Source of the DNA: an uncultured Bacteroidia bacterium
GTDB taxonomy: Bacteria > Bacteroidota > Bacteroidia > Bacteroidales > UBA932
NCBI GenBank assembly: GCA_902780935.1
Contig: CACZHP010000028.1
Coordinates: 1 to 38,033 of the forward strand
Length of the DNA stretch: 38,033 nucleotides
Direction: 5' to 3'
Below are positions 2,086 through 34,321 of the stretch, one piece after another. A program made the translations under genes and the position numbers. Below the pieces are notes generated by a model, which saw only the letters and a program-made list of their open reading frames with translations, was not told where the DNA came from and did no database searches. How positions within the stretch are numbered: the stretch's first letter is position 1; each line of letters opens with the position of its first letter.

Positions 2086-2095
2086 ATTGAATGAT

Positions 2096-3511
2096 TTATT
2101 TGACCTTAATCGAGTTCAGGAGTTCGAGTTTGCCGTTATCCACAAGGTGAATGATCAGTTCTCCGAACAGGGTGTTCTGCCATGCGAACCAGGCGCGGGT
2201 GAACTTCGTGGCGTCGTCCTTGAAGAATGACTCATGCATGAAACCGGTGCCGGCGTCAGTCTTCATCAGGGTCTCGACGCACCACTTGATCTCTTTGTCG
2301 TCCTGGGATGTGAAGGCCTTCATCATTATGCTCATGGGCCAGATGTAGTCGTAGCCGATGTGCGGGCCGCCGATTCCTTCGCCGGCCGTGCCCTTGAAGA
2401 AATAAGGATTATCCTCGCTCCAGACGAACTTCCTGGTGTTCTGGTAGATAGGGTCATTGATGTCCACATCTCCGAGATATGCCATGGCCAAAAGGCTCGG
2501 AACGTTGGAGTCGTCCATCAGGAGGTGGTTGCCGAATCCGTCCACCTCGAAAGCGTAGATCTTGCCGTATTTGGGGTGGTTATAGACAGCATATTCCTTG
2601 AGCGCCGTCTCGACCTCAGCGGCCAGGTCCTCGCACTCTTTGGCCAGGCTCTGATCCTTGTTGACTGTCTTGAGAATTTCGGCCGCCTTCCTTAACGAAG
2701 TGACAGCGAAGAAGTTGGACGGCACCAGAAACTCGAAGATCGTGGCGTCGTCGGAAGGACGGAAGGCTGAGGCGATCAGGCCGCACGGCTTCACGGGGTT
2801 GCCTCTTCCGTCATTGGACTTGGTGTCGAACTGACGCTCTGTCACGCGGCCGAAACGGTAGGGCCCCGGGCCGTCCTTGCGCTGCTGCTCCTTGAAAGTC
2901 TTGAGCGTGGCCTTGATGGCTGTGAGCCATTTGTCGCCGAAAACCGAGTCGTCTCCCGTCACCTTCCAGTACTGGTAGGCGAGACGGATAGGGTAGCAAT
3001 GTGAGTCGATCTCCCATTTGCGCTCATGGTCCCAAGGGTTCATGTCGGTCAGGTCAGACTCCCATTCGCTGCCTTTCGGACCGTCATTGAAAGCGTTGGC
3101 ATAAGGGTCGATGGCAATCAGGGAGAACTGGCAGTTGATCACTCCGGCGAGCATGTTCTTGAGTTCCTCATCCTCGTTCGCGAGCTGGATGTAAGGCCAT
3201 ACCTGCGCACCTGAATCGCGAAGCCACATGGCATGGATGTCACCAGTGTACACGAAAGTCCTCCAGTCCCCGTTCTCATCCTTGCCGAAATGGACGGTGG
3301 TGTCAAGGGTGTTGGGATAGCAATTGGCGAACATCCAGGCCAGACGGGGGTTCTTCAAGGCTTTCCGCATCTGGTCGATCTTGTTCTCGACAGCGGTTGA
3401 CTTGAAGAGCCTCTGGTCGGGTGCGGGACGCTTGGACTCGTAATTCTTGGCCTGGGTGGCCCACGCGCAAAGCATCATGATGCTTATGATCAGAAGGAGT
3501 GATCTTTTCAT
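2096..3511 (-). CDS. GH125 exo-alpha-1,6-mannosidase, secreted
   Basis: A 471-residue protein of the usual GH125 length (old name DUF1237), whose characterised members are inverting exo-alpha-1,6-mannosidases. Residues 1-21 form a Sec signal peptide without a lipobox Cys. Family motifs are all present: YTGDIHAMWLRDS (88-100), WEIDSHCYP (166-173), AFRPSDDA (249-256, holding the expected general acid Asp) and GTGFMHESF (421-429, holding the expected base Glu). The (alpha/alpha)6-barrel length is complete. It is the first gene of a minus-strand pair with GH92 (10-base gap), which fits stepwise removal of alpha-linked mannose. A TAATTTTG -7 box lies on the minus strand at 3537-3544, but no convincing -33 element is seen. 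Confidence 0.95.
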   Translation of the reverse strand: MKRSLLLIISIMMLCAWATQAKNYESKRPAPDQRLFKSTAVENKIDQMRKALKNPRLAWMFANCYPNTLDTTVHFGKDENGDWRTFVYTGDIHAMWLRDSGAQVWPYIQLANEDEELKNMLAGVINCQFSLIAIDPYANAFNDGPKGSEWESDLTDMNPWDHERKWEIDSHCYPIRLAYQYWKVTGDDSVFGDKWLTAIKATLKTFKEQQRKDGPGPYRFGRVTERQFDTKSNDGRGNPVKPCGLIASAFRPSDDATIFEFLVPSNFFAVTSLRKAAEILKTVNKDQSLAKECEDLAAEVETALKEYAVYNHPKYGKIYAFEVDGFGNHLLMDDSNVPSLLAMAYLGDVDINDPIYQNTRKFVWSEDNPYFFKGTAGEGIGGPHIGYDYIWPMSIMMKAFTSQDDKEIKWCVETLMKTDAGTGFMHESFFKDDATKFTRAWFAWQNTLFGELIIHLVDNGKLELLNSIKVK

Positions 3512-3536
3512 TGGATATTTTTTTACCTGTTTTTCA

Positions 3537-13430: not shown

Positions 13431-16400
13431 ATGAAAAGCAACATGTTCTACCTGATTCTCACTGTCGCGGTGATTTGCGCCGTCACCGCCGTAGCTTGCG
13501 CCTATGCCAAGAATGAAAAGCCGAAGGGACCGGACGATCAAGGCCATGTCCTCTCGACTCTCTGGAAAAACTATTACGCCGCCCAGAAGGCGGATTTGCC
13601 GAAGAAGATGAGCGAGTCGCTCGATGCCATCATGGAGCAGGCCAAGTCGAAACGTTACCACTGGGATTTCTACGATGCGGCCGTGAAGAAAGTCGACGCC
13701 GAGGTCTCAAGGAACTGGAAGGTGCGCCAGGAGATGAACACCTTCCTCGCCAATGCTGTCAAGGAATATGACGAGCCGATCGTGACCTACACCTACAGGT
13801 CCTCCTACGGCGGTTCGGGACTCCTGGACTACGTCCTCGCCAACAAGACCCGCCTCCAGGCCGGCAAGAACAAGGCTTTCCACACCAGGACTTCCGGGCA
13901 GATGAACGACCTGTTGAACGGCTTTATCAAGGATGATTATGAATATGCCCTCTGGGCTGAGAGGCTCGGAGGCAGGAACTCCACCAAGGGCTTTGAGGCG
14001 CTGAAAGAATACTTGGGCGAGACATACCCTAACGCCGCTTGGAATGAATATGTGTCCCTCCAGGGCCGGTATTGGTCCTATAGGAAAGACGATGTCAAGG
14101 CTTTTATTGACAAATATTCCGGGAAGGCCATTGGCCTTTTCGGAAAGGCCCTTTTGTTTGAGGACAGGATGAACGACCTGTCCCGCAATAAAGGCACAGA
14201 GGCGGACTATAAAGCCTTGTACGCTGACATCAAGGCTGCCGAGAAGGAGCGTCTTTCATATAAATCCGGAGTTGACTCCAAGATCGCCGGAACAGTCAAG
14301 AGTTTCCAGAACCAGATGGAAACACTTGATGATAAGGATGTCTCGATCTTTTTCGAGGGGGATGACATTGTCGTGACGTTGAGGAATCTCCCCAGTGTCG
14401 AGGTTTCCATGTACCTTGACAATAAGGAAGGCACCCCGTTGTTCAAGAAGACGGTGGACAATCCCCGGAAGAGCTTTTATGTCCTTGACACCGTGAAGGT
14501 TCCCATTCCGAGGTGTGACGACGGGAACTATATCGTCAAGGCCAGGAACGGCAAGGTCGAGACCATCGGACAGTATATTCCCAAGACTTTGTCAATAGCT
14601 TTGAGAGAGGATTTCGAGGGCCGGAAGTTCTATGTGGCTGAATACCTTACCGGCAAGCCCCTGGCCAATGTGGACCTGGCGCTCATCCTCTCAGGCAAGG
14701 TCGTCGCCGAGGCAAAGGATGTCAAGGTTGACGGCTTCACGCCTCTGCCGGAAGCTCTGGTAAAGGCGATGAAGAAAGACACATATTATTATTTGCGCGC
14801 CTGCTGGAAGGATCCGGACGGTTTCCTCCATTTCTCCAAGGAGCAGAGCCTGCGCGATACGCGGGATTACTATTCCGAGCGTAAGGGCCGTGTCAGCGAT
14901 TACTGCGAGATATTAACAGACAAGACCGCCTTCAATCCCGGCGAGACCGTGAAGTACAAGGCTGTACTATATTCCGGCAACCAATATGTGAGCTTTAAAG
15001 TCTTTGAGGCCGGCGAGGCGATCCAGGTCAGTCTCATCAATGCGGAGAATAAAGAGATTGCCAAGACCGAACTGAAAACCAATGAGTTCGGCTCGGTGGC
15101 CGGAGAATTCAAGATCCCTGAAGGGGAGAGGAACGGCCGGTACACTATCAAGGTCCGTCACAAGAACAGCACCCTGGAGACCAAGTCCATAGTCGTGGAC
15201 GAATTCGTCCTCCCGACTTACGACCTCGCCTTCGACAGCATTGACCAGCTTTATTTCATGGGTGACGAGATCGAGGTGAAGGGAAAGGTGTCCAGTTACA
15301 GCGGGCATCCGCTCGATGCCGCCGAAGTGAATTACGAAGTAGACAGTTGGAGCAAAGTCATAGCCGATGGAGAGCTTAAACTCGAGCCGGATGGCTCGTT
15401 CTCGGTGAAGTTCCCGTCCGTGAAAGACAGGTATTGGTACAGGGTCACGGTGAAGGTCATGGATGCCACCGGCGAGACCAGCGAGTTCTCCAGGAGGGTA
15501 TTCGTCCTGGATGCCTTCAACATCGAAATGAATCTTGTGAATGCCGCCGAGGGAGACATAGTCCTGGGAAAAGACAAGTACGGACAATGCGACCTTCTGT
15601 CGGAGAATGTTGCGAAGGTGACGTTCACTTCCCGAAATAACGAGGGGCAGCCGGTCCCCGTAGGCATCAAGTACGAGTTGAAAGACAGCGATGACAAAGT
15701 CGTGGCCACCGGCGAGGCCGAGTCCGGCTCCACCAAGGAGATAGCCATCCCGGCTCCTGGACTTTACACCCTTGTCTCGACCTCCAGCGTCAAGGCTACT
15801 GACGGAAAGGAAATATCCTCCAAGTCCGAGATGAAGATACTCCTCGTCGGGGATGGAGACAAGTCCCTGAATGCCGATGTCGAGAATTTCTTCAAACTCG
15901 TTGGCTCCTGCGCCGATTGCTCGGTCAAGGACGGCGAGGAGATAAAGGTCCAGTTCGGGGCCGGTGAGGGTCCTGTATGGGCTGTCGCCGAACTCTTCGA
16001 TGAGCTGAGAAAACCTCTCGAACGTGAACTGGTCCATCTGGACGGGAAGCCCGGCTCGGAAGGCTCCGTCAAGACTCTTTCTTTTGAGTACAAGAGTGAA
16101 TATCCTGACGCTTTGACGCTGTATATCTTCTACTTCCGTAACGGGACACACTACGTTTTCCACCGTGAGTTCCAAAGGGAGAAGACGATTCTGAATCTCC
16201 CTCTGACCTTCACGTCTTTCGAGGACAAGGCCTATCCGGGGAAGCAATATTCATTCACCCTGAAGTCGGATCCCGGGACCGAGATGGTCGCGGCTATCTT
16301 CGACAAGGCTTCGGAGAGGATTTCCCCGAACCAGTGGGAGACTGTCAGGCTTGTCAACCTCGGTGCCCGTCCGGTCTATTTCGACGTGATGGACGGCAGC

Positions 16401-18704
16401 ATCGACCGAGGCAGGATCTTCGACTATGGTGACCGTAAGATGATGAAGACCCGTGCCGCCGCAGGGGCGGTTAATGACGCCATGGTGCTTGAGGCTGCCC
16501 CGATGATGGTGGAGGAGAGCGCCATGATGATGGACAGGGTAGCGGAGGATGCTGAAGAATCGTCCAGTGCCGCTCTTGATGAAGTAGCTGTCCGCTCAGA
16601 CTTCTCTACGGCACTTGCTTTCGAGCCTTATCTCAGGACTGACGGCAATGGCTCGGCGACTCTGAAATTCAAGACCTCCGACAAACTCTCCACCTTCATT
16701 GTACAGGTCTTTGCCCACACCAAGGAGATGAAGAATGCCCTCCTGCGGCAGGAGATGACGGTCTCTATTCCGGTGAAAGTCAATGTGGTGGAACCAAAGT
16801 ATATTTACAAGGGCGACAAGTATGTCCTCCACGCCACCGTATCGAGTTCCTCCGACAAGCCGGTATCTGGGACGGTCGCTCTCCAGACATATTCCGGACT
16901 CGACATCGAAGGGGCGAAGCCTTTCGCGACTGTCTCCAAGAAGGTGACAGTCCCTGCGGGGAAGTCCGTCCCGGTCGAGTTTACGGTCGATCCCAAGGGA
17001 CATGACATGCTTGGACTTAAGGTAGTGTTCGCTGACAACGCCAAGTCATTCTCTGACGCTGTGCTCGTCCCTCTGCCGATTTACGAGGCTGAACAGACAT
17101 TGACTGAGGCTCATTCAGCTGTCCTTCTCGCCGGGATGGACAAGAACGCTCTCATCCAGAGGATCCGTTCCGCATTCACCGGAACCTCCTCAGCCGGAGC
17201 GGAATACAAGGAAATCGATATCCGTCAGATGGTTCTGGACGCCATTCCTTCCAAGGTCGAGCCGGACGGAAAGGATATCCTCTCGCTGACAGAGGCTTAC
17301 TATGTACGTCGGGTCGCAGAGAAACTTGGAGCTGACTTCAAGTTCACGACTTCGGATGCGGACATCCTTGATAAAATAGTCGCCTGCCAGAATGCCGACG
17401 GCGGTTTCGGATGGTTCGAAGGCATGAAGTCTTCGCCGGTCATCACGGCAGTGGTCCTGGAGCGCTTTGCGAAGCTCCGTGACGCCGGACTGGCGGAGGA
17501 AGTAGCTGATTCCCAGAAGGCTGTCGCCTTCCTCGACAAGAACCAGTTCGTCCATGGCGACTGGCCTTACTGGAGCGGATGGATCTCTGCCGCACAGTAC
17601 GCCTATGTTCGCTCTATGTACCCTTCCGTAAAGTTCGATGTCTCAAAGGAAACCATCAGCGAGAAGAGTGAATATTCAAAGAACTTCAGGGAGTTCAAGA
17701 AATATATCAAGGACTACCTGATTCCTTCGCAGAAGGATGGCCGCGGCCTGCAGGGACAGATTCTCGCGAAGGCCCGCAGGATCAAGACTCTCGTGAATCT
17801 GGTTTATGGGGAGGGTGGATTGAAGCTGGCCTCCGACTGGGGAATCAAGATCTCCGCCGACCAGAAGATGAGAAGCTCAATCGTGGCCGACATCGCTTCA
17901 CTTGATGAATACGCTGTCGAGCACCGTGACGGTGGTTGGTACTATCCCAATGCCGTGATGCCGTGGAGGGGCCTGCTGGAGAGTGAGCTCTATGCCCACT
18001 CATTGCTCTGTGACCTGCTTTCCGACAAGAGAGTTGACTCTGGATCCGCTGTTGAGGCCAAGATCGCCGACGGCATCCGCATCTGGATGATGCTCCAGAA
18101 AGAGACCCAGAAATGGGGAGAGGATCCCGCTTTCGTGGATGCCGTCAACTCTGTGCTGACGGGCGGTGAGGACGTTCTCTCAACGAGGGTCATCCTGATG
18201 ACCAAGACTTACCGCAAACCCTTCAAGGAGATTGTCGCGGCGGGCAACGGCTTCACCATCGAGCGCCATTTCTACAAAGAGGTCCAGGGCGAGAACTCAT
18301 CTGTGAACCTACTTGAGATCTATCCTGGAATGAAGCTCAGCAGGGGAGAGAAGATCATCACCGAATATAAGATCTGGAACCAGGAGAACCGCAGCTTCGT
18401 GAAGCTCACGGCTCCCCGTGAGGCCGCTTTCAGGCCCGTGGACCAGCTCTCTGGCCATGTCGGTTGGTGGTACAGGCCGATCGGATCGTGGGCTGTCTCG
18501 CCTCAGGGCTACAGGAACGTCAAGGCTGACCGCACCGAGTACTACTTCGATGTCTATCCCGAGGAGAACACCACGGTGACAGAGGAGTTCTACATCACCC
18601 AGGAGGGAACCTTCAGCGCCCCGGTCGTCACGATCGAATCACTGTACGCTCCCCACTACAGGGCAAATGACAAATTCGGCGGGACACTTAATATTATTGA
18701 ATAG
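13431..18704 (+). CDS. Large alpha-2-macroglobulin-like envelope protein without thioester motif
   Basis: A 1757-residue exported protein. The signal ends near 23-26 (AVAC at 20-23 could be a lipobox; the AYA behind it could be a signal peptidase I site). About 30-320 is a helical domain; after it come repeated beta-sandwich (MG-like) units, including the MG2-type block TDKTAFNPGETVKYKAVLYSG (about 499-519) and the VDEFVLPTYDLAFDS junction. Residues about 1003-1055 are rich in Met, Ala and Glu and stand just before the A2M-domain block AFEPYLRTDGNGSATLKFKTSDKLSTFIVQV. An alpha/alpha-toroid (CQNADGGFGWFEGMKSSP, about 1320) follows. No CxEQ thioester motif is present. Macroglobulins trap proteases; without the thioester, trapping would have to be non-covalent. 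A propeller lipoprotein starts 2 bases behind it. Confidence 0.88.
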   Translation: MKSNMFYLILTVAVICAVTAVACAYAKNEKPKGPDDQGHVLSTLWKNYYAAQKADLPKKMSESLDAIMEQAKSKRYHWDFYDAAVKKVDAEVSRNWKVRQEMNTFLANAVKEYDEPIVTYTYRSSYGGSGLLDYVLANKTRLQAGKNKAFHTRTSGQMNDLLNGFIKDDYEYALWAERLGGRNSTKGFEALKEYLGETYPNAAWNEYVSLQGRYWSYRKDDVKAFIDKYSGKAIGLFGKALLFEDRMNDLSRNKGTEADYKALYADIKAAEKERLSYKSGVDSKIAGTVKSFQNQMETLDDKDVSIFFEGDDIVVTLRNLPSVEVSMYLDNKEGTPLFKKTVDNPRKSFYVLDTVKVPIPRCDDGNYIVKARNGKVETIGQYIPKTLSIALREDFEGRKFYVAEYLTGKPLANVDLALILSGKVVAEAKDVKVDGFTPLPEALVKAMKKDTYYYLRACWKDPDGFLHFSKEQSLRDTRDYYSERKGRVSDYCEILTDKTAFNPGETVKYKAVLYSGNQYVSFKVFEAGEAIQVSLINAENKEIAKTELKTNEFGSVAGEFKIPEGERNGRYTIKVRHKNSTLETKSIVVDEFVLPTYDLAFDSIDQLYFMGDEIEVKGKVSSYSGHPLDAAEVNYEVDSWSKVIADGELKLEPDGSFSVKFPSVKDRYWYRVTVKVMDATGETSEFSRRVFVLDAFNIEMNLVNAAEGDIVLGKDKYGQCDLLSENVAKVTFTSRNNEGQPVPVGIKYELKDSDDKVVATGEAESGSTKEIAIPAPGLYTLVSTSSVKATDGKEISSKSEMKILLVGDGDKSLNADVENFFKLVGSCADCSVKDGEEIKVQFGAGEGPVWAVAELFDELRKPLERELVHLDGKPGSEGSVKTLSFEYKSEYPDALTLYIFYFRNGTHYVFHREFQREKTILNLPLTFTSFEDKAYPGKQYSFTLKSDPGTEMVAAIFDKASERISPNQWETVRLVNLGARPVYFDVMDGSIDRGRIFDYGDRKMMKTRAAAGAVNDAMVLEAAPMMVEESAMMMDRVAEDAEESSSAALDEVAVRSDFSTALAFEPYLRTDGNGSATLKFKTSDKLSTFIVQVFAHTKEMKNALLRQEMTVSIPVKVNVVEPKYIYKGDKYVLHATVSSSSDKPVSGTVALQTYSGLDIEGAKPFATVSKKVTVPAGKSVPVEFTVDPKGHDMLGLKVVFADNAKSFSDAVLVPLPIYEAEQTLTEAHSAVLLAGMDKNALIQRIRSAFTGTSSAGAEYKEIDIRQMVLDAIPSKVEPDGKDILSLTEAYYVRRVAEKLGADFKFTTSDADILDKIVACQNADGGFGWFEGMKSSPVITAVVLERFAKLRDAGLAEEVADSQKAVAFLDKNQFVHGDWPYWSGWISAAQYAYVRSMYPSVKFDVSKETISEKSEYSKNFREFKKYIKDYLIPSQKDGRGLQGQILAKARRIKTLVNLVYGEGGLKLASDWGIKISADQKMRSSIVADIASLDEYAVEHRDGGWYYPNAVMPWRGLLESELYAHSLLCDLLSDKRVDSGSAVEAKIADGIRIWMMLQKETQKWGEDPAFVDAVNSVLTGGEDVLSTRVILMTKTYRKPFKEIVAAGNGFTIERHFYKEVQGENSSVNLLEIYPGMKLSRGEKIITEYKIWNQENRSFVKLTAPREAAFRPVDQLSGHVGWWYRPIGSWAVSPQGYRNVKADRTEYYFDVYPEENTTVTEEFYITQEGTFSAPVVTIESLYAPHYRANDKFGGTLNIIE

Positions 18705-18706
18705 TA

Positions 18707-19639
18707 ATGAGAAATGTATTCCTGCTTTCCATTCTTGCCGTGATGGTCTGCGCTTGCGGGGAGAAGACGATAACTGGGGTCAGTTATCCTGAACCCCCTG
18801 TGGAAATACTTCGCAGCGGGGCTTTCGGGATGAAACTGATCAATTATTTCAACATCATCCAAGCCCCGGACGGGACTTACAGGATGTATTTCTCGGGTAA
18901 TGAGAAAAATTCGATCGCGGAAGATGAATGGAGCCAGAACCTTTATCTCGCGGAGTCGTCCGATGGCTTCCACTATGAGTTGAAAACCAAGATAATGGAT
19001 TCTCTGATCGAGTCTTCAGTCTGTTTGGTGGAGGATAAGGATTGGCCTTACCGCCTGGTCGGCAACCAGAAAGTGGACGGGAAGCATTGTATGTTCCTCT
19101 GGAGATCCAAGGATGGGGTAGAATTTGTCGATCCTAAGTTGCTTTACGACTTCAAACACGACACCCAGAACGTCTTCGTTCCCAGGGGAAAACGGATGAC
19201 GCTTTATTCACGGCAGACTCAAGAGCACTTCCAGAACCGTAGAGTCACGTTAGCGGACTTCACCCTCGATGGTGAGGCTCTAGGAGAACCGGAGATCATG
19301 GCGGGCGACTGCCTGTATAACTCCGCTGCATGCAAGGTGGACGATCGTTACGACCTGCTGTTCCCGACCTATTACAACACCCATGGGGGTACCACCGACG
19401 GCAGTTGGTTTAGGACATATCTGGCGGACGGCAGTTTTGTGCGGGAGCTCCCTTGTGAGTTGAACCGCTGGGTCGAACCCGACGAACTGTGGGCTCTGGC
19501 ATCCCCGGGATTCATATTCATAGGAGGGGAGAGATACCTTGCCTTTGCCACCAGGACAGCATCTCATGACCATAGCCATGAGGGTATGATCAGCAAATAC
19601 AAGCTGATAAAGGTCGTCCTGGAATATGATAATCAGTGA
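18707..19639 (+). CDS. Beta-propeller lipoprotein, glycosidase-like (GH43/GH32/GH130 fold)
   Basis: A 310-residue lipoprotein (signal 1-16, Cys17 or Cys15 in MVCACG). The body shows repeated blade-like units such as APDGTYRMYFSGN (about 52-64), LYLAESSDGFHYE, MFLWRSKDGVEF and GGERYLAFATRT, typical of five-bladed propellers of the GH43/GH32/GH130 group. I cannot match the catalytic acids of any one family, so enzyme activity is unproven; it may be a glycan-binding propeller. It starts 2 bases after the macroglobulin stop, so the two are cotranscribed. Its 3' end overlaps the end of the convergent PAP2-GH43 gene by 7 bases. Confidence 0.7.
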   Translation: MRNVFLLSILAVMVCACGEKTITGVSYPEPPVEILRSGAFGMKLINYFNIIQAPDGTYRMYFSGNEKNSIAEDEWSQNLYLAESSDGFHYELKTKIMDSLIESSVCLVEDKDWPYRLVGNQKVDGKHCMFLWRSKDGVEFVDPKLLYDFKHDTQNVFVPRGKRMTLYSRQTQEHFQNRRVTLADFTLDGEALGEPEIMAGDCLYNSAACKVDDRYDLLFPTYYNTHGGTTDGSWFRTYLADGSFVRELPCELNRWVEPDELWALASPGFIFIGGERYLAFATRTASHDHSHEGMISKYKLIKVVLEYDNQ

Positions 19640-21315
19640 CGTAGTTTGCTGGCAGGGACTCCGTCGAAGGAGATCTTGACGGGAAGAATCCTGCCATCCT
19701 GGTCAAAATACAGCCTCTCGATGCAGACCACCCTATGGTTCCCGTCAGAGCTTTGAAGGGGGTGCCGGTGATAGACGATGTAGTATTCGTCTTTTCCGGG
19801 CCCCTTCATTACGGAATGGTGCCCGGCTCCGGTCGCGACTTCCATGTCTGACTCAAGGATGGTGCCGATGCGCTCGAACGGGCCGAAGGGGCTGTCGGAG
19901 ATGGCGTAGGCCACCCGGTAGTCGGGGCCTGTCCAGCCGCCCTCGCTCCACATGAAATAGTACTTTCCGTTCCTCTTCAACATGAAGGGACCCTCGACGT
20001 AGCCTTTTGGGGTGACTTCCTTGAACATGGTTCCGTCCTCAAAGGGAACCAGGCTCTTAAGGTCGTCTCCAAGCTTTACGATATTGCAGTGCTGCCAGCC
20101 GCCGTAGTACATGTAGTAGGTCCCGTCGTCGTCCTTGAACACGAACTGGTCGATGGGCTGGGCCCCGTTGATGACTTCGTCAATAAGCGGATGACCGAGA
20201 GCGTCCTTGAAAGGTCCGGCCGGATTGTCGGCGACAGCCACCCCGATGCCGCCCTCGCCTTTCTCATGCATGTCGTTGGCTCCGAAGTAGATGTAATATG
20301 TGCCGTCTTTCTCGATGACGGACGGAGCCCAGAGGGCCCGGCGCAGCCAGCTGATGTTTTCTTTGGAGAGAACCTTCTCGTGCCTTGTCCAGTGGACCAG
20401 GTCCCTTGAGGAAAACGCGTCCATGAAAAGCTGTTCGTCAAATGGTCTCGACCAGGTGGGATAAATCCAGTACTCATTGCCGAAGACCACTCCCTCTGGA
20501 TCGGCGTACCAGCCTGGGAACAAGGGATTTCCGCTGACTTTGCTATGCGTCCCGAAACGTGACAGCGCGTCGATCTCCTTTTGGGCCTTCTTCAAGTCTT
20601 TGCGGAATTCTTCGTTTGAGTGGAGCACGGCCACGATTCCGGAAGCAGCTGTTCTGGCTTCCTGGACATCACTCTGATAGTGGTAGCCGAGGATGACGCG
20701 GCTCGCCCCATACCTGTATCCCACTTCCAGGATGTCCTGGCTCCTTTCCGGAAGCAGCTCCGACAAGATGAGGGCCATCGTCCAGCCTCTTGTAGTGTGG
20801 CCCGATGGATATGAAGCCGACTCCCTGAGGCTCTCCTCATCCTCCGGGAGTCCAGTGGGTTCGGAGAACTCGATATACGGGCGGATGCGGGAGTAATATG
20901 ACTTGATCTTTTTGTTGGCGGCGGAAGATGTCTTGGTCGCCTTGGAAAGGAGACGATACAGGTTGGGCGTGAGTTCCTCGCTGAACCTCAGCCCGATAGC
21001 CTCTTCGAACAGCCTCGACATGTAATCCATGGAGGAAGCGGCATCCTCTTTCGCGACCCTTCCCCGGGCTCTTTCCCGGACAGTCTTTCCCCATTCGTAA
21101 TACGCCTTGTCTCCGGCGAACCTGGGATCATCTGCCTTGACCGGTGCGGGAATGATAGCGACCGCATCCGGCAACGAGGCTGTCTGGAAATATCTCTTGG
21201 CGGAGGCCTCTGATGACTGGCCTTGCTTTACGGTGCCGCAGGAAGACACGAAGACGATGATCGCGGCCGCCAGGACGGCCTGCAATACTGCGGAGTTTCT
21301 TCTCGGTTTGCTCAT
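19633..21315 (-). CDS. PAP2-type acid phosphatase fused to GH43 glycosidase, lipoprotein
   Basis: A 560-residue lipoprotein (VSSC, Cys26) with two complete enzyme domains. Residues about 45-245 are a class A/PAP2 acid phosphatase with all three motifs: K-x6-RP (Lys138, Arg145-Pro146), SYPSGHTTRGW (168-178) and SR-x5-H-x3-D (Ser205-Arg206, His212, Asp216). Residues about 260-555 are a GH43 five-bladed propeller: GWYADPEGVVF (268-278, likely base Asp272), RRALWAPSVIEKDGTYYIYFG (325-345), PIDQFVFKDDDGTYYMYYG (387-405, Asp389) and YVEGPFMLKRNGKYYF (439-454, likely acid Glu441). The junction has no frameshift or stop, and the linker is short. Substrate is unknown: a phosphorylated glycan is a natural guess. 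GH43 members act mainly on arabinosides and xylosides. Confidence 0.9.
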   Translation of the reverse strand: MSKPRRNSAVLQAVLAAAIIVFVSSCGTVKQGQSSEASAKRYFQTASLPDAVAIIPAPVKADDPRFAGDKAYYEWGKTVRERARGRVAKEDAASSMDYMSRLFEEAIGLRFSEELTPNLYRLLSKATKTSSAANKKIKSYYSRIRPYIEFSEPTGLPEDEESLRESASYPSGHTTRGWTMALILSELLPERSQDILEVGYRYGASRVILGYHYQSDVQEARTAASGIVAVLHSNEEFRKDLKKAQKEIDALSRFGTHSKVSGNPLFPGWYADPEGVVFGNEYWIYPTWSRPFDEQLFMDAFSSRDLVHWTRHEKVLSKENISWLRRALWAPSVIEKDGTYYIYFGANDMHEKGEGGIGVAVADNPAGPFKDALGHPLIDEVINGAQPIDQFVFKDDDGTYYMYYGGWQHCNIVKLGDDLKSLVPFEDGTMFKEVTPKGYVEGPFMLKRNGKYYFMWSEGGWTGPDYRVAYAISDSPFGPFERIGTILESDMEVATGAGHHSVMKGPGKDEYYIVYHRHPLQSSDGNHRVVCIERLYFDQDGRILPVKISFDGVPASKLRH

Positions 21316-21443: not shown

Positions 21444-21518
21444 GGAAGCATAGCTCAGCTGGTTCAGAGCACCTGCCTTACAAGCAGGGGGTCACTGGTT
21501 CGAATCCAGTTGTTTCCA
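21444..21518 (+). tRNA. tRNA-Val (anticodon TAC)
   Basis: A 75-base cloverleaf. Acceptor GGAAGCA (21444-21450) pairs with TGTTTCC (21511-21517; one G-T pair), followed by discriminator A. The D-arm GCTC/GAGC, anticodon stem CCTGC/GCAGG with loop CTTACAA (anticodon TAC at 21479-21481) and T-arm ACTGG-TTCGAAT-CCAGT are all intact. CCA is not encoded. Confidence 0.95.
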
Positions 21519-21531
21519 CTGATTGATAATG

Positions 21532-26519: not shown

Positions 26520-28784
26520 TTATTTGTTCTCCGCTATGGTGAATCCGACGGAATGAGAGTTCCCAGCCTCGTCGACAACCGTGACCGAATGCTTGCCCGG
26601 AGACGGAGTCAATCTCATCTGGTGTATGAACCGTGTTTGCCCCACATACTCGTTGTCCAGATGCCAGAACACGGTCTGGCCCGGATCCCTGTGGGCGAGG
26701 TTGAAAGTCACTCCGGCAATACTCCCGTCCAGCTGCCTTGGAATATAAATCGTGGTCCCACCCTCTGGGTATATGAACTCCATCGGAGCGTAGTCCTCTT
26801 TGTTGGCAGGAATGTACGGGTCATATTCAGGATGATGCTGCCTATAATACCATTCCATCGAAGGCGGGAGAATGAATGTGCGTATCCCGTCCAGGGTTTT
26901 GTGGTATGGACACGGCTCCGTCTTGACCGCTTTCTGCGGAAGCATCAGGGTGTCAAGCCTCTCGCAACTTGGACCCGCCAGGTGACCGGACGAATGACAG
27001 GTCTCCATCAGGACATAGTCTCCTGGAGCGGGCTCCTTGAACCATCCTCCGGCCGCATAAGCGTTCTCCACATCCTTGACGGGCAGGAGGTTGAATATGT
27101 CGAACAAGACGGGCCCCGCCGTCCTGGCTCCGGTCAGTCCCGGGACACCCTGCCCTTGGGCGTTACCGGCCCAAACTCCGACGGCATAGTCGGATGTAAC
27201 CCCGACAGCCCAGGCGTCGCGGAATCCGTAGCTTGTGCCTGTCTTCCAGGCCACTTTCCTGAGTGATCTGACGAGTCTCCAGTCCATCTCATCGGGCCGG
27301 TTCACTTCCTTCAAGGCCTCGAAAGTATGCCAGAGGGCGCATTTGTCCGTGAGGGGGAAACCGCTGAGTCTATCGCCCTTACGAGAGAAATCCCGTCCGG
27401 ACGCCTGATAGGAGGCTGACATCTTGGCGTACATCGAAGTGATGTCCATCAATGTCGCCTCTCCTCCGCCAAGGATTAGCGATAGCCCGTAATGCGAGGC
27501 GCTCTTCGTCAGGGTGGTGAGGCCGGATTTCCGGAGAATATCCAGGAATCTCGGAACCCCGAACCTGCGCAGCATGTGGACGGAAGGGACGTTCAGTGAG
27601 CGGGCGAGTGCCTCGGCGGCCGGGACTGCTCCGGCGAACTCCCGGTTGAAATTCTGTGGGGAGAAACCGTTGAGGTTGACGGGAATATCCGGCAGCAAGG
27701 TATAGGGAAGGATCTCACCGTCTTGGAGTGACGCACAGTAAAGTATTGGTTTCAAAATACTTCCGGTGCTTCTTGGAGAACCTGCTATGTCCACGTCCGA
27801 TCCGGGTCTCTTGCGGTCGGGATCGGCGTTGCCGACATAGGCGAGAATCTCACCTGTTCGGACGTCCATTACCACCGCCGCAAGGTCGTTGATCCCTGTC
27901 ACCGCGAACTCGTCGTTCCACATGTCGGTGACTTCCTGAACCTGCCGCTGGAGATGTATGTCGACAGTAGTCTTGACTCTTTGTCCTCTTGAAGTCTTGG
28001 CAAAGCGTTCCGCAAGGTGCCTGGCATCTCTTGGGAGGGCTACGGGCTCAAGCGGAAGAGGTTCATCAAGAGCGAGTTCCAAATCGAGGTCGTCCATTTT
28101 GCCCCGTTTGTAGAGATTGGTTAGAAGGCGGTTTCGCTTTTCAAGCAATCTCTCCCTGTTCTTTCCGGGGTGGATGTCCGCGGGGGCGTTCGGCAGGACC
28201 GCCAGTGTGGCTGCCTCTCCCCAGGACAGTTCCTCGGGAGGTCGGCCGAAATATCTCCAGGCCGCAGCCTCCAGCCCTACCACGTTTCCGCCGAACGGAG
28301 CGTGGGAGGCATATAGCGCCAGGATTTTTTTCTTCGAATATCTAAGCTCGAGCCTTGTGGCCAGGACCGATTCCACGATTTTTTGCCAGATGGTCCTTTC
28401 CTTGCCTCGTGACAACCTAATGACCTGCATTGTGATCGTGCTGCCTCCGCTGGTCACCTTGCCCGCTTTGATATTCCCGATCGCCGCCCTCACGATCGAG
28501 ACCGGGTTGACCCCCGGATGGTAGGGGAACCACCGGTCCTCGAACTCTATGATGGCGTCTTTGAACTTGTCCGGAACCTTGTCGGAAGGGGGAAAACGCC
28601 ACTGCCCGTCAGCAGCGATCCTCGCCCCGAGAAGCTCCCCGTTGCGGTCCTCCACGACCGTGGAATAGCTCGTTCCCTTGAAAATGTTCCTTGGAAGACA
28701 GAGAAGGTAGGCTATCAAGATGGCGGCGGCCAAAATGATGATTGGCCGCCGCGCATTCTTGAATCTGACCTTCCTGATTCCCAT
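26520..28784 (-). CDS. pbpC: Penicillin-binding protein 1C
   Basis: A 754-residue bifunctional peptidoglycan synthase. The start at 28784 (MGIRKVRF) is chosen because it overlaps the macroglobulin TAA by one base; a longer in-frame version starts inside that gene. A membrane anchor (about 14-30) is followed by a GT51 glycosyltransferase domain (FEDRWF with Glu82, TSGGSTITMQ 111-120), a transpeptidase domain with SILK (Ser342, Lys345), SLN (396-398) and KTGTS (514-518), and a C-terminal BiPBP_C domain from about 670. All catalytic motifs are intact. The macroglobulin-pbpC pair is a recurring bacterial arrangement: the first traps proteases entering the periplasm, the second repairs the wall. 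Confidence 0.96.
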   Translation of the reverse strand: MGIRKVRFKNARRPIIILAAAILIAYLLCLPRNIFKGTSYSTVVEDRNGELLGARIAADGQWRFPPSDKVPDKFKDAIIEFEDRWFPYHPGVNPVSIVRAAIGNIKAGKVTSGGSTITMQVIRLSRGKERTIWQKIVESVLATRLELRYSKKKILALYASHAPFGGNVVGLEAAAWRYFGRPPEELSWGEAATLAVLPNAPADIHPGKNRERLLEKRNRLLTNLYKRGKMDDLDLELALDEPLPLEPVALPRDARHLAERFAKTSRGQRVKTTVDIHLQRQVQEVTDMWNDEFAVTGINDLAAVVMDVRTGEILAYVGNADPDRKRPGSDVDIAGSPRSTGSILKPILYCASLQDGEILPYTLLPDIPVNLNGFSPQNFNREFAGAVPAAEALARSLNVPSVHMLRRFGVPRFLDILRKSGLTTLTKSASHYGLSLILGGGEATLMDITSMYAKMSASYQASGRDFSRKGDRLSGFPLTDKCALWHTFEALKEVNRPDEMDWRLVRSLRKVAWKTGTSYGFRDAWAVGVTSDYAVGVWAGNAQGQGVPGLTGARTAGPVLFDIFNLLPVKDVENAYAAGGWFKEPAPGDYVLMETCHSSGHLAGPSCERLDTLMLPQKAVKTEPCPYHKTLDGIRTFILPPSMEWYYRQHHPEYDPYIPANKEDYAPMEFIYPEGGTTIYIPRQLDGSIAGVTFNLAHRDPGQTVFWHLDNEYVGQTRFIHQMRLTPSPGKHSVTVVDEAGNSHSVGFTIAENK

Positions 28785-31700
28785 TATTGGGCAGTTACCT
28801 TCGCTGTCCCGGAGGCTGAGTTGGCGCTGATGTGGGCGTCGTACAGAGCCTCGCATTTGACTGAAGGAAGGGTGAACTCGCCCTCGTAGGCGGCGTGCAT
28901 CTTGACCTTGAAGGTCTTGCTGCGGCCTCTCGGCAGGTCGAAGTACCAGATGACGCGGTCGTCTCGGATGTCCCTGTAGGAATAACCGGTCCTGCTTTCT
29001 CCTGAACCGAACAGTCGGTCGTTAAATATCTCCCATCCGGAAGGTACGACCTCGGTGAGCGCCAGATTGGTATAGTCTCTCATCGAGCTGGAGTTGCCGA
29101 CCGTGATGGTGACAGTGAAGTCAGTGCCCTGGGCAATCTCGGCGGGATTGATGACCTTGCCGTTGGAGGATGTGTAGGTGACGGTCATGTTGATGCCGTT
29201 GGAACGGGCCTCGTTCCTGGCACCGAACTCGGGCACTGTCGATGTGATGAGGGTGGCGTAGATGACACCGCCGGAGGTGTTCTTCACATCAGCGCCTCCC
29301 GCCTGGGTGTCGAGGGCGAGACCATAGACGGACTTCGGTGTCTTCACAGGAGTGGCCTTGCCGGCCTGGGTGACCTCAGCCTCGAGGTTGCCGGTATTGA
29401 CCTTGGCGGCGAGACTTGACATTCCCTTGGAAGCGAAGGCTGTCTCCTGTGTCATGTACCATCCTCCTGACATCGCTTTGGAGACCTCCTGGGCGATATC
29501 CATGGCTGACGGCACATCGTCGATCAGCACACAGGTCTCAAGGGCGACCGCCTTGTCGCGGGTGGATGAGCCGAATGTCCTGCCGGATTCGGTGTACTCG
29601 GAGAAGTCTGTCCTGAGATTGGCCACCATGTCCTTGGCGATATTCTTCTTTCCGGCCACGGCGTAGGCGGATGCGAGCATCCATCCGGCCTGCATTGAAA
29701 GGTTCTCGGAATCCTTGAGCCTGTTCATGGCGCCATTCTCGGATTCTCCCTTGAGCGCGAGGGTGTAAAGCCTGTAAGCCTGCTCGAAGTCCCATAGAGG
29801 ATATTCAGGATTGGCCCTGTAGTCCTGGACGGCTTTCTTTTGATATCTGGCCCAGCTGGCAAGCACGCCCTTGCTGACGCTGAACCCGTTCTGGGAGGCC
29901 ATGACCATGAACTGACCGGCCATGGAAGTGACCCAGCCATTGGCGTCAGGGGATCCTGGCCAGTAGGCGAAGCCTCCGCTGCCTAACTGCCTCTGGTAGA
30001 GCTGCTGCAGGATCGTGGGGATGAGCTTCTCAGCCTCCTGTTTCTTCTCGTCGGGGAGCATGTCCTTTATCGAGAGGAGGGTTATTCCCCTGGAGGCCAG
30101 CTGCTCGCTGCAGTTGTAGTCATAATCCTTGACGAACTTGTATATGCCTTCGTAGTCAACTGAAGGGAAGCTCGCGAGCTCAAGGGTGGCCCATTGCTCG
30201 GGACTTGCCGCGAAGGGTGAGAAACCGAAATGCTTGCTCTCTCCCTTGCCGATCATAGCCCTGGTGACATTGACTGTGGCGGGGTTGGGATTCCTCACCG
30301 GAATCTCGATTGTCTCGGAGGCCTTGTGGCCGCTGCCGTCAGCGGTTACCGTGACCTTGGCGACACCCTCACCTGTGGCTTCGAGGTCGAACTTGACGAG
30401 CTTGTCGCCGGGCTTGTCGAAGCTGACCGAGGTCTTCTCGTTGCCGGTTATCTTGAGCGGTCCTTCGACCTTGACGCTGACATTGGCGCTCTTGACACCG
30501 TCCTCAAGGGCGAAGACGTTGACAGGAAGCGTCACCTTCTCGCCGGTGCCGATTACCCTCGGAAGGGTAGGGAGCACCATCAGCGGCGAGCGGACGGGAA
30601 CTGTCTTCTCGGCGTTGCCATACTGCGCTCCGTGGCCGGCGATAAGCATGACCCTCACGCTTCCGACATACATCGGGAGAGTGATCTTATGGGTGGCGGA
30701 ACCGTTCTGGAGAGTGAACGGGCCGATGAACTTGACGACAGCGTTGAACCGGTTGTCCTTCTTCGCTCCGACGTTGACGCTCTCGTCACCGCCGATGCTG
30801 AACATCGGGGAGAACCTTCCGCTGTATGCGCCGATCACGTAGTCGTAGAGATCCCAGGTGCTCACTCCTAGCGCCTCCCTCTCGTACATCGCCTTCCAAG
30901 GATCAGGGGTCTTGAAGCCGGTCAGGTCGAGCAGACCCTCGTCCACGATGGCAAGGGTGTAGGTCATCGGTTTGCCGGACTTCTCCTTGATCTTGACCTT
31001 GAACTCTTCCTCGGGACGCAGCACGTCAGGCATCTCGATCACGGGCTCCAGGTGGGAGTTCTTGTCGTTGACCAGGATCGGCTGGACACCGTACAGCCTG
31101 ATCGGGAGGTCGTTGTCTGCCCTCTCGTGAGGCTGGAGCAAAGTGATGTGGATATAGAAGTTCGGAGCCATCTCGGGAGTAACCTTGAAGGTGTAGGTGG
31201 CGTCGCCCTCTCCGGAGGTCTTGACCCATTTCCTGGACAGGACGGTCCTCGAGTTCTCGAGTGAGACCAGGGCCTGGCCCTTGGCGGCGGCAGGAATGTA
31301 AACCGTCACTGTCTCACCCACGTCGTAAGACTCCTTGTCGGTGGAGAAGGAGAGCATCGAGAGAGCGTCGGGGTCTGATTTTGAAGACCTTCCCCTGTAG
31401 GCTGGCCAGTCGGCGTAGAAGACTCCGCCGGAGATATGGCCGCTATTGGTGTCCTTGACGATCAGCAGATAGCGACCCCATTCGGGATAATCGACCCTGA
31501 ACGGGATGGTGCTTCCGTTCTTTGCGGATCTCATCGATCCGGATGAAATCATCTCGGCCGAGGAACTGTTGACATAGGAGTCGAGGCTCTCGTCGCGGCT
31601 CTCCCACCACCAGCTCCACTTGATCTTGTAGATTGAATATGTCAGGTTGTCTCCCGCCACGGACGCTCCGTCCTTATCGACGACGATGACGTCGATCTTG

Positions 31701-34321
31701 TAGTCCTTGTCGGTCTCAAGCCAGTGGCTGTCACCTTCCTTGGGAAGCCTTACACCCACGTAGGAGGAATAAGGGGAGTAGGGAACCGACATGGTGTTGA
31801 AGCTGACGTCTCCGCCGGGCTCCTCAACAGTGGTAACGATGTCCGCTGTCAGCATCCCGGGCGCGTCGTTGGCTTTGGGGGTCTCCACGTTGATCCTCAA
31901 CTCACCGTTCTGGTCGAGCCTGTAGTCCACAAGGTCGTGCTCGCTTCTTGAGAAGCTGGCCATCGGGGTCCTGAAGATATATCCGTCATATCCCTTGAAA
32001 GTGGACGCTCCGGATCTCAGGGTCATGTTCACCTTAGCGTTCAGACCTGATGCGGGCGGGCCGGTGAGCCAGTTGGATGAGATAAATATCGGGACCCTGC
32101 TGCCGCCCTCGATGGCACCTTCGCCCATGTCGAGGTTGATCTTGAGCCGGTTGGGCTTGACGCTCTCGATGCTGAGCGACTTGTGGAAGGTAGCGCCTCC
32201 GATCTTGAAATAGGCGTTCCAGATTCCTGTGGGATCCTCCTGCTTGGTGGGGATGTTGAACACGTAGAAGCCGTCCTTGGCGTTGCCGTTGACGTTCTTG
32301 GCGTAGAAGCGTCCCTCGGGAGTGTAAAGCTCCATGACAGCCGGGTGGTTGTCCGGAATCTTGTCCTCCTTGTCCTCGAGGATGAGGCTGACGTGGAGGG
32401 TGTCACCGGGACGCCAGACGCCTCTTTCCCCGTATATGAAGGCTTTCAGTCCCTTGTCAAGAACCTTGCCTCCCACATCGAAGCGGCTGAGGGTCTTCTC
32501 GTCTCCGGCCGTCACCTTGAGGTAGCTCGTGGCGCCTCCACGCTTGGCGACCACCACGAAGGGTTTCCCGGACAGGGAGACCTCTGCCATTCCGTCAGTC
32601 CCGGTCTTGGCATAACCTATCTCCTTGAGCTGGTAGCTATAGACGTAGAGCTCGGAATTGAAGACCGGCTCGGCGGAGATGATGTCGCTGACGCTGACCC
32701 AGATCTTGTCGCCTCCGGAATATTTGGCTATGACTCCGAGGTTGGAGGTGACGAGATTGATGGCGGGGAACTTCTCCTCGTCCATGTAGTAGGTGGGCTT
32801 CAAAGGGTTGTCCCTGTCTTCCCACTCATATTCATCCCAATCGTAGAATGACTCGTAGAACCAGGGGGAAGGAGTGTCCCAGTCGCTGAAATCCTGGTCC
32901 GAATCCTGGTCTGAATACAGGCTGACGAGCTCGTTGGTGGGAGTGCCGCTCTTGAACTCGACCTGCTTCCCGTACACCGAGTAATCCTGCTTGAAGGAGA
33001 TCCTTACCCTGTAGATGGCGCCGGCCTCCTGCTTGAACAGGCCGGAGAGATCCACGCTGTAGTCCTGCCACTTGTGGAGGTTCTTGGAAGGATCCGAATC
33101 CAGCCTTACGCATCTCTTGTAGACGAGCCTTCCGCTCCTTCTCAGGGAGTTGTCTCCACTTAGATTGTTGTCCTGAAGGAACATCAGGACGTTGTCCTCA
33201 TATATCTGGATGACCTTGATGTCCACCGCGTTGAGGTTGACAGCCTTGAAGGGGAGGATCAGCTCCTTCGAGTTCGGGAGGATGTTCCCGGTCAGAGGTA
33301 TCTCGACCGCGGGTTTCTCCTCGGAGGCTGAGAATGACTTCGAGAAATCCGCCCCGAGCCTGACCCCGTCATAGCTCTTCACGGCTCCCGAGACAGTTAG
33401 GGTCAGGGGAACGTCTTGGGGATTCTCGTAGAATATCTTGGCCCTGGAATTCTCGGACTGCACATAATATCTTCCGACTCCGTCGAGCTTGAAGAGCCCG
33501 GAATTGTCGGCCACATCCTCGATCGGATTGGAGAAGAAGACGCTGATGTATGGATCTTCGGCTTCAACCCTTTCGGCACTGACTATCCTGAATCCGGCCA
33601 TCGAGGGGATCGTAGTCTCTATCTTGGAGTCAGCCACGAACCCTGTGTCTCCGGATTTGAGAGTGATCCTCAGGATGTTGTCCTTGTCCCCGCGGTTCAG
33701 CCCCACCAGGTCGAAATGGTAGTTGAGCTGGTCCTGCCCGGCAGTCACGGTCAGCTCACCGGACTTGTCTGGATAGCTGTAGTCTATCATCTTACGGACC
33801 TTCTCGACAGGAAGTTCCTCAGTCAGGGCGATGGTTCCGCTCACGCTCGCCTTGTCCGGGGAAGCCGGGGTGATCGTGATGTCATCCAGGGCCAAGACCG
33901 CCTCCTTGATGGCGACCAGGAAGTTGAACGAGAATCTCTTGAACTTCGACGAACCGACCTTGTGGATCTTGTCCAGACGCAGTTTTCCGGTGTAGGCCTG
34001 CCCTGGCTTGAGCGCCCCGTTCTCGGGAATGAACTCAATCGTGCTCTGGGTAAGCCATCTGGCTGTTCCTTTGATCGAAGGGGTGAAAGTGAGTATACCC
34101 TCTTTGACATCGGCTCCTGGAGTCACATCCTGGATGTCGGAGGTCAGTTCCACCCTGATCGTGGACTTGTCTGAGATGATGCCTCCCGTGTAGGCTTTTA
34201 TAAAGGTGGCGAACTCGGTGCTTTGCCCCTTGCTTTTTCCAAAGCGGCTGCAGGATGGCGCCGTGGCCGCTATGACGGCCAGAGTCAATACGGCCAATAA
34301 GGCCTTGGCTGATTTCTTCAT
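28784..34321 (-). CDS. Alpha-2-macroglobulin family lipoprotein with thioester motif
   Basis: A 1845-residue lipoprotein (APSC, Cys24). It has many beta-sandwich MG domains, with an MG2-type block GVWRPGDTLHVSLILEDKE (about 639-657) and an A2M-type region with VVKFIGPFTLQNG (about 1190). The thioester motif is intact: YNCSEQLASRG, with Cys1404, Glu1406 and Gln1407 (CSEQ), inside an alpha-toroid (QLGSGGFAYWPGSPDANG). A bacterial thioester macroglobulin covalently traps proteases. An acidic, aromatic loop (about 465-510, SDWDTPSP...DWDEYEWEDRD) is unusual in composition. The C-terminal 100 residues form a final beta-sandwich. It is translationally coupled to pbpC (TAATG, one-base overlap). Confidence 0.95.
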   Translation of the reverse strand: MKKSAKALLAVLTLAVIAATAPSCSRFGKSKGQSTEFATFIKAYTGGIISDKSTIRVELTSDIQDVTPGADVKEGILTFTPSIKGTARWLTQSTIEFIPENGALKPGQAYTGKLRLDKIHKVGSSKFKRFSFNFLVAIKEAVLALDDITITPASPDKASVSGTIALTEELPVEKVRKMIDYSYPDKSGELTVTAGQDQLNYHFDLVGLNRGDKDNILRITLKSGDTGFVADSKIETTIPSMAGFRIVSAERVEAEDPYISVFFSNPIEDVADNSGLFKLDGVGRYYVQSENSRAKIFYENPQDVPLTLTVSGAVKSYDGVRLGADFSKSFSASEEKPAVEIPLTGNILPNSKELILPFKAVNLNAVDIKVIQIYEDNVLMFLQDNNLSGDNSLRRSGRLVYKRCVRLDSDPSKNLHKWQDYSVDLSGLFKQEAGAIYRVRISFKQDYSVYGKQVEFKSGTPTNELVSLYSDQDSDQDFSDWDTPSPWFYESFYDWDEYEWEDRDNPLKPTYYMDEEKFPAINLVTSNLGVIAKYSGGDKIWVSVSDIISAEPVFNSELYVYSYQLKEIGYAKTGTDGMAEVSLSGKPFVVVAKRGGATSYLKVTAGDEKTLSRFDVGGKVLDKGLKAFIYGERGVWRPGDTLHVSLILEDKEDKIPDNHPAVMELYTPEGRFYAKNVNGNAKDGFYVFNIPTKQEDPTGIWNAYFKIGGATFHKSLSIESVKPNRLKINLDMGEGAIEGGSRVPIFISSNWLTGPPASGLNAKVNMTLRSGASTFKGYDGYIFRTPMASFSRSEHDLVDYRLDQNGELRINVETPKANDAPGMLTADIVTTVEEPGGDVSFNTMSVPYSPYSSYVGVRLPKEGDSHWLETDKDYKIDVIVVDKDGASVAGDNLTYSIYKIKWSWWWESRDESLDSYVNSSSAEMISSGSMRSAKNGSTIPFRVDYPEWGRYLLIVKDTNSGHISGGVFYADWPAYRGRSSKSDPDALSMLSFSTDKESYDVGETVTVYIPAAAKGQALVSLENSRTVLSRKWVKTSGEGDATYTFKVTPEMAPNFYIHITLLQPHERADNDLPIRLYGVQPILVNDKNSHLEPVIEMPDVLRPEEEFKVKIKEKSGKPMTYTLAIVDEGLLDLTGFKTPDPWKAMYEREALGVSTWDLYDYVIGAYSGRFSPMFSIGGDESVNVGAKKDNRFNAVVKFIGPFTLQNGSATHKITLPMYVGSVRVMLIAGHGAQYGNAEKTVPVRSPLMVLPTLPRVIGTGEKVTLPVNVFALEDGVKSANVSVKVEGPLKITGNEKTSVSFDKPGDKLVKFDLEATGEGVAKVTVTADGSGHKASETIEIPVRNPNPATVNVTRAMIGKGESKHFGFSPFAASPEQWATLELASFPSVDYEGIYKFVKDYDYNCSEQLASRGITLLSIKDMLPDEKKQEAEKLIPTILQQLYQRQLGSGGFAYWPGSPDANGWVTSMAGQFMVMASQNGFSVSKGVLASWARYQKKAVQDYRANPEYPLWDFEQAYRLYTLALKGESENGAMNRLKDSENLSMQAGWMLASAYAVAGKKNIAKDMVANLRTDFSEYTESGRTFGSSTRDKAVALETCVLIDDVPSAMDIAQEVSKAMSGGWYMTQETAFASKGMSSLAAKVNTGNLEAEVTQAGKATPVKTPKSVYGLALDTQAGGADVKNTSGGVIYATLITSTVPEFGARNEARSNGINMTVTYTSSNGKVINPAEIAQGTDFTVTITVGNSSSMRDYTNLALTEVVPSGWEIFNDRLFGSGESRTGYSYRDIRDDRVIWYFDLPRGRSKTFKVKMHAAYEGEFTLPSVKCEALYDAHISANSASGTAKVTAQ

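Follow-up and report, generated by a model that had tools for sequence, protein, structure and literature searches.

The window, that is, the whole 38,033-nucleotide stretch of uncultured Bacteroidales DNA analysed here, encodes a protein in which a class A acid phosphatase (PAP2) is followed by a glycosidase of family GH43 (Table 1). An earlier sequence-only reading had described the gene as one frame with no lesion; the ORF check agreed, giving a single ATG-initiated frame of 560 amino acids, stop included, and the same fusion is conserved in relatives. The product is a lipoprotein-like protein, predicted to be exported, of a gut/rumen Bacteroidales genus. A tRNA-Val gene (tac) lies immediately upstream. 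The neighbouring gene, which converges on the fused gene and shares seven bases with it, encodes a lipoprotein-like product of 310 amino acids. It has no Pfam match, looks by eye like another sugar-active propeller, and has homologs at 4 of 80 GH43 loci (L037, L038, L040, and L043; E ≤ 1e-20). A GH92 gene stands beside a GH125 alpha-mannosidase gene at one end of the window; the former is truncated by the window edge and seems by eye to be split into two frames near 1394-1451. The window also contains a bifunctional penicillin-binding protein gene adjoining a bacterial alpha-2-macroglobulin gene, and a second alpha-2-macroglobulin-like gene is found near the fusion. When 20 kb of the window was searched against plasmids, no match among the 20 of 84 records listed was longer than 77 bases.

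Table 1. Features of the fused gene and its surroundings in the window.
Feature	Coordinates	Strand	Basis
Fused gene: lipoprotein-like signal, class A acid phosphatase (PAP2), GH43	19633..21315	-	ORF, Pfam, NCBIfam
Signal peptide, residues 1-26, lipobox VSSC ending at C26	21238..21315	-	sequence and regex
Class A acid phosphatase domain, residues 26-252	20560..21240	-	Pfam, structure alignment, motif test
Junction, residues ~252-261, directly before GNPLF	20533..20562	-	alignment of 8 fused and 3 solo copies
GH43 five-bladed propeller domain, residues 258-560	19636..20544	-	Pfam, structure alignment, motif test
GH92 gene	3..1912	-	
GH125 alpha-mannosidase gene	2096..3511	-	
Second alpha-2-macroglobulin-like gene	13431..18704	+	
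310-aa lipoprotein-like gene	18707..19639	+	
tRNA-Val (tac)	21444..21519	+	
Penicillin-binding protein and alpha-2-macroglobulin genes	26520..34321	-	

A domain search placed both halves above the curated Pfam cut-offs: PAP2 matched residues 130-223 (E = 3.5e-13, 49.9 bits against a cut-off of 27.2) and GH43 (PF04616) matched residues 262-541 (E = 5.2e-54, 184 bits against 32.2). Class A acid phosphatases carry the motif KX6RP-(X12-54)-PSGH-(X31-54)-SRX5HX3D and the catalytic residues His/Arg/His/Asp (PMC12356135). In the PAP2 half this signature is complete at residues 138-216 as K-X6-RP-X23-PSGH-X31-SR-X5-H-X3-D (K138, R145-P146, PSGH 170-173, S205-R206, H212, and D216), and both spacers, 23 and 31, fall within the published ranges. 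Alignment to the Escherichia blattae enzyme 1D2T and a Foldseek match to Shigella 8yc1 (39% identity, TMt 0.87-0.90) showed the same helical fold and catalytic His/Arg/His/Asp, so that motif, spacing, catalytic residues, and fold are all those of the PhoC/PhoN class. The NCBIfam PhoC equivalog NF045654 spans residues 25-249 (E = 5.5e-49); its score of 166.9 bits is below the cut-off of 430, and the PAP2 half was therefore not filed as PhoC. The matched solved class A phosphatases are stand-alone chains of 217-274 residues, whereas the window's protein adds a GH43 domain.

The GH43 half has the base D272, the pKa modulator D389, and the acid E441, which we take to be the triad on the basis of the family motif and of an alignment with solved GH43 chains; they are accompanied by H499-H500. 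The GH43 triad has been described as an Asp base, an Asp pKa modulator, and a Glu acid (PMC7809346). Foldseek matched this half to BT_3675 (3qz4; 38% identity, TMt 0.85), the nearest solved chain, with which it has the five-bladed propeller and the catalytic triad in common; together with the Pfam score, this places it in GH43. BT_3675, which is not a row of our GH43 tree, is a GH43_34 alpha-L-arabinofuranosidase; the account of this subfamily in PMC8939339 also includes beta-D-galactofuranosidases, and, of 228 multidomain GH43 proteins, counts 143 in which GH43_34 is C-terminal. A pentose is a likely, but not certain, substrate. Unlike BT_3675, the GH43 of the window's fusion is joined to a phosphatase, and it sits in a large clade of mostly solo Bacteroidota enzymes.

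We refer to the window's kind of PAP2-GH43 fusion as type I and to a second kind, represented by loci L141 and L142, as type II. All 16 checked positions (11 in the phosphatase, comprising the whole class A signature, and 5 in GH43, including D272, D389, and E441) are identical in the 10 fused rows tested, eight of type I and two of type II. The statements that the three phosphatase motifs and the GH43 acid/base positions are intact are thus upheld. A lipobox-like motif was detected by regex in 8/8 type I rows. Surface-exposed lipoproteins have, in addition to the lipobox, an acidic surface-export signal following the cysteine. No acidic stretch is evident right after the lipobox cysteine in type I proteins, where the residues are GTVKQG, GTASKD, or GTATKS, and a surface location, as the sequence-only reading would have it, is unproven. 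The AlphaFold2 model of the fused protein (mean pLDDT 87.9, pTM 0.67) predicts two confident folds, one per half; the domains are modelled well, and the orientation between them is uncertain. No long flexible linker separates the halves in the alignment of eight fused and three solo copies.

A search of genome contigs recovered six further copies spanning both halves (L037-L042, from the best 80 of 528 confirmed relatives), all in metagenome-assembled genomes; L037, L041, and L042 are labelled as from ruminant stomachs. Of 400 genomes sampled evenly across the window's genus, 7 hold type I, counting the window's own. The fusion is real but rare; the searches scored the best 2-6 first-look candidates per genome, and the counts may therefore be low. 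With both samples pooled there are eight distinct type I protein sequences, the window's among them, which are 82-91% identical to that of the window (75-90% in the PAP2 half and 90-95% in the GH43 half). Purifying selection acts on both halves: dN/dS is 0.055-0.129 for PAP2 and 0.024-0.047 for GH43 (27 of 28 type I pairs with a finite value), and although dS is near saturation in most of the 28 pairs, the pairs with low dS agree. Of the two halves, PAP2 is the faster-evolving one among type I proteins. Decay of one half is ruled out by dN/dS and by residue conservation. Several neighbours are shared with the window at four of the six further loci, while at L040 the sole shared neighbour is a remote relative of the 310-aa gene, and at L041 there is none.

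Type II was detected in 2 of the same 400 genomes, as a protein of 550 amino acids (L141) and one of 774 amino acids with the architecture PAP2-PAP2-GH43 (L142). These are only 39% identical to the window's protein in alignment A1. No lipobox was found in L141 by regex, and the true N-terminus of L142, downstream of which the row used in the lipobox test had started, carries by eye a signal without a lipobox. The type II GH43 has ten relatives at 75-79% identity, in frames of 335-396 amino acids with PAP2 absent from the match. The type II PAP2 pair occurs in two genomes at 77% identity, in frames of 514-519 amino acids that are too short for GH43. A further locus, L165, encodes a seven-bladed lactonase-type propeller joined to a type II-like GH43 (1450-3525, minus strand).

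Trees of each half, all of the 'quick' type with support values other than bootstraps, separate the two kinds. Type I forms a single clade (support 100) among the solo PAP2s of the 76-row PAP2 tree, and the GH43-adjacent PAP2 of type II groups with tandem, M28-joined, and GDSL-joined PAP2s (21 rows, support 99). In the GH43 tree (121 rows, with long-branch warnings for L030, L031, L148, and L076), type I is one clade (support 96) adjoining the solo enzyme of L043, and type II falls in a separate clade. Forcing types I and II together on the PAP2 tree was 115 log-likelihood units worse in an AU test (p-AU 1.2e-5, which is optimistic since the group was chosen after the first tree had been viewed). 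A single origin of both fusion types is ruled out by this test and by the separate GH43 clades, and the joins are therefore independent: PAP2 and GH43 were paired on at least two occasions, each time from other lineages of both families.

Class A PAP2 was found in 197 of the 400 genomes of the genus at E ≤ 1e-40, and it is the N-terminal module in several unrelated fusions. Among the fetched loci, picked largely for long frames so that partner numbers are not frequencies, and after rows with identical domains had been dropped, 28 distinct PAP2 domains were solo or without a recognised partner. The others were joined to a D-Ala-D-Ala dipeptidase (17), an M28 peptidase (8), a GDSL hydrolase (6), GH43 of type I (8), or GH43 of type II (1, plus two rows from one PAP2-PAP2-GH43 protein), or were tandem PAP2 (6 rows, two of them from another family of the order, L027). 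Partners were confirmed by Pfam for two of the dipeptidase fusions and for one each of the M28 and GDSL fusions, and typed by BLAST for the rest. The class A motif is complete in 73 of the 76 PAP2 domains of the census. At 6 of 65 loci the PAP2 gene lay under a longer antisense frame; these are dipeptidase fusions (L247 and L249), a GDSL fusion (L216), a tandem PAP2 (L211, which coincides in position with L153), and two loci with PAP2 alone recognised (L253 and L257), and all six were left out of the census counts and trees.

The loci with PAP2 and a VanX-like D-Ala-D-Ala dipeptidase (Peptidase_M15) are found among L175, L176, L226-L229, and L237-L249. Those with an M28 peptidase are L171, L173, L174, L222-L224, L235, and L236, and those with a GDSL hydrolase are L172, L179, L216, L219, and L250-L252. 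L254 (1220-2293, minus strand) encodes a class A PAP2 with an unassigned C-terminal domain of ~127 amino acids. Long frames can be deceptive: one of 581 amino acids (G358) turned out to be a solo gene with a spurious N-terminal stretch ahead of it, and the long PAP2 frame of L225 was rejected as a fusion on the same grounds by eye.

The GH43 lineage of type I (GH43-I) has likewise been joined to other domains: to DUF3089, GH3, GH31, and GH39 in the window's genus, and to GH42, GH78, GH92, a second GH43, and a cyclophilin-type PPIase in other Bacteroidales. Fused rows make up 17 of the 57 GH43-I rows in the genus sample (7 to PAP2, 6 to DUF3089, 2 to GH3, 1 to GH31, and 1 to GH39; one of each partner assigned by Pfam, the six DUF3089 and the other GH3 by BLAST), a count that ignores kinship, as the PAP2 joins form one clade and the DUF3089 joins another. 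The DUF3089 fusions begin their GH43 at the same SGNPLF start as type I (L009, L051, L052, L054, and L131-L135, in the window's genus). The PPIase fusion (L101, 7311-8936, plus strand) comes from a Bacteroidaceae metagenome-assembled genome from horse faeces.

Beyond the genus, profile A1 (E ≤ 1e-80) matched 45 of the 392 other genomes sampled from the order, one of which (G350) is from the window's genus, and 27 of 295 genomes sampled from the phylum. None of the matches in these 392 and 295 genomes spans both halves, all lying within the GH43 part; scoring covered the 3 or 4 top candidates in each genome, and fusions of weaker similarity would escape. Judged by frame length alone, room for a fusion was seen in 3 of 48 order-sample GH43 rows from outside the genus (645, 1070, and 1478 amino acids) and in 0 of 28 phylum-sample rows, compared with the 17 of 57 fused rows in the genus sample. 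Of the three, one has a GH3-like part by BLAST (L185) and one a GH78 (G082, at L013).

Class A PAP2 enzymes are EDTA-insensitive phosphomonoesterases that work through a phospho-histidine, and GH43 enzymes are inverting exo-glycosidases. We suggest, with a probability of roughly 0.6, that the fused protein is a bifunctional exported hydrolase in which each half works on small substrates of its own, made by a lineage that stitches hydrolases together; both activities, the location, and the independence of the substrates are what we infer. The PAP2 half would hydrolyze phosphomonoesters with H212 as nucleophile and H173 as acid. The GH43 half would remove a terminal sugar, most likely alpha-L-arabinofuranose, by inversion with D272 as base and E441 as acid. 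Keeping the two together at the membrane might provide co-export, equal dosage, and proximity, while each half would act separately. The signal and lipobox are part of the PAP2 half. Three aligned solo GH43 relatives carry a signal of their own, placed directly before the SGNPLF start that they have in common with the fusions, and this signal was probably what the join replaced. PAP2-GH43 would be one product of a lineage that repeatedly joins exported hydrolases. This explanation is favoured over one shared glycan because each half is found in many further combinations, among which no common substrate is evident.

The sequence-only reading had proposed that both halves act on one glycan, and the evidence gathered here does not support it. 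In such an enzyme the phosphatase would take off a phosphate blocking a terminal arabinofuranose or galactofuranose, and GH43 would then remove the sugar itself. Both steps would take place on a single phosphorylated glycan, for instance one from a microbial cell wall or capsule or a fungal phosphoglycan. Several observations fit: the pairing arose twice in one genus from different lineages, the junction is short and of constant length in 8/8 type I copies, GH43_34 as described (PMC8939339) is the nearest characterised subfamily and covers both sugars, the GH92 and GH125 mannosidase genes lie ~16 kb off in the window, and a GH43-I relative (L064) is fused to GH92. The recurrence is suggestive of a shared substrate, not decisive. 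Given one PAP2-GH43 join, the chance of one further GH43 among 5-7 other PAP2 joins, a number read from the PAP2 tree, would be ~9-12% if partners come from an assumed 500 exported genes (p = 9/500, from 9 GH43 matches) and ~2% if they come from an assumed 2,500 genes. Against a shared glycan, the flanks vary and no constant polysaccharide-utilisation locus was seen by eye around the fused genes; no fixed locus of this kind was found in the 75 of 80 GH43 loci that could be scanned, 50 of which have co-directional close neighbours. The PAP2 family is, moreover, joined to peptidases (the dipeptidase and M28) and a GDSL hydrolase, and the partners of the GH43 lineage comprise DUF3089, a PPIase, and seven GH families, GH43 itself among them. 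We consider a same-glycan enzyme unlikely, though the best placed of the alternatives.

In a related view, which we hold to be doubtful, PAP2 would be a general N-terminal module of the genus, joined several times independently to the D-Ala-D-Ala dipeptidase, the M28 peptidase, the GDSL hydrolase, and two GH43 lineages, and the GH43 versions would be dedicated to phosphoglycans, taking off first a phosphate cap and then the underlying arabinofuranose or galactofuranose. It is less probable still that one half is a catalytically idle passenger, with PAP2 acting mainly as a secreted carrier for folding or oligomerisation, or GH43 mainly as a binding module; the faster evolution of PAP2 and its N-terminal place in several unrelated fusions would suit this, but dN/dS is well below 1 in both halves and none of the 16 checked positions varies. 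An assembly or annotation artefact joining two genes, conceivable since the six relatives are all metagenome-assembled, is rejected by eight distinct sequences from separate assemblies with an identical junction, and by the differing flanks at L040 and L041, which leaves it a negligible probability.

The preferred explanation, a pair of hydrolases with separate substrates, also bears on how such proteins are read. No paper on the PAP2-GH43 pair was found among those listed from the open-licence literature, outside which most subscription journals lie, in line with the initial impression that the pair had not been described; nor is a two-step activity on a phosphate cap and then a sugar described in the open-licence literature searched. 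Multicatalytic fusions in Bacteroidota are already known, and are usually taken as hints of shared substrates. Two catalytic domains in one exported protein are likewise reported for BlArafE (GH43_22-GH43_34; PMC8939339), BoCE6-CE1 (PMC7110780), and CE15-GH8 (PMC8417218). As described there, both domains of BlArafE and of BoCE6-CE1 act on one plant glycan, whereas in the window's fusion the partner belongs to a broad phosphomonoesterase family. That a single phosphatase family is fused, within one genus, to enzymes cutting sugars, peptides, and esters suggests that fusion alone may reflect a lineage-wide joining of exported enzymes. If the two halves were to act on the same glycan after all, this would point to a phosphorylated glycan that is eaten in the rumen and to a one-protein route to open it.
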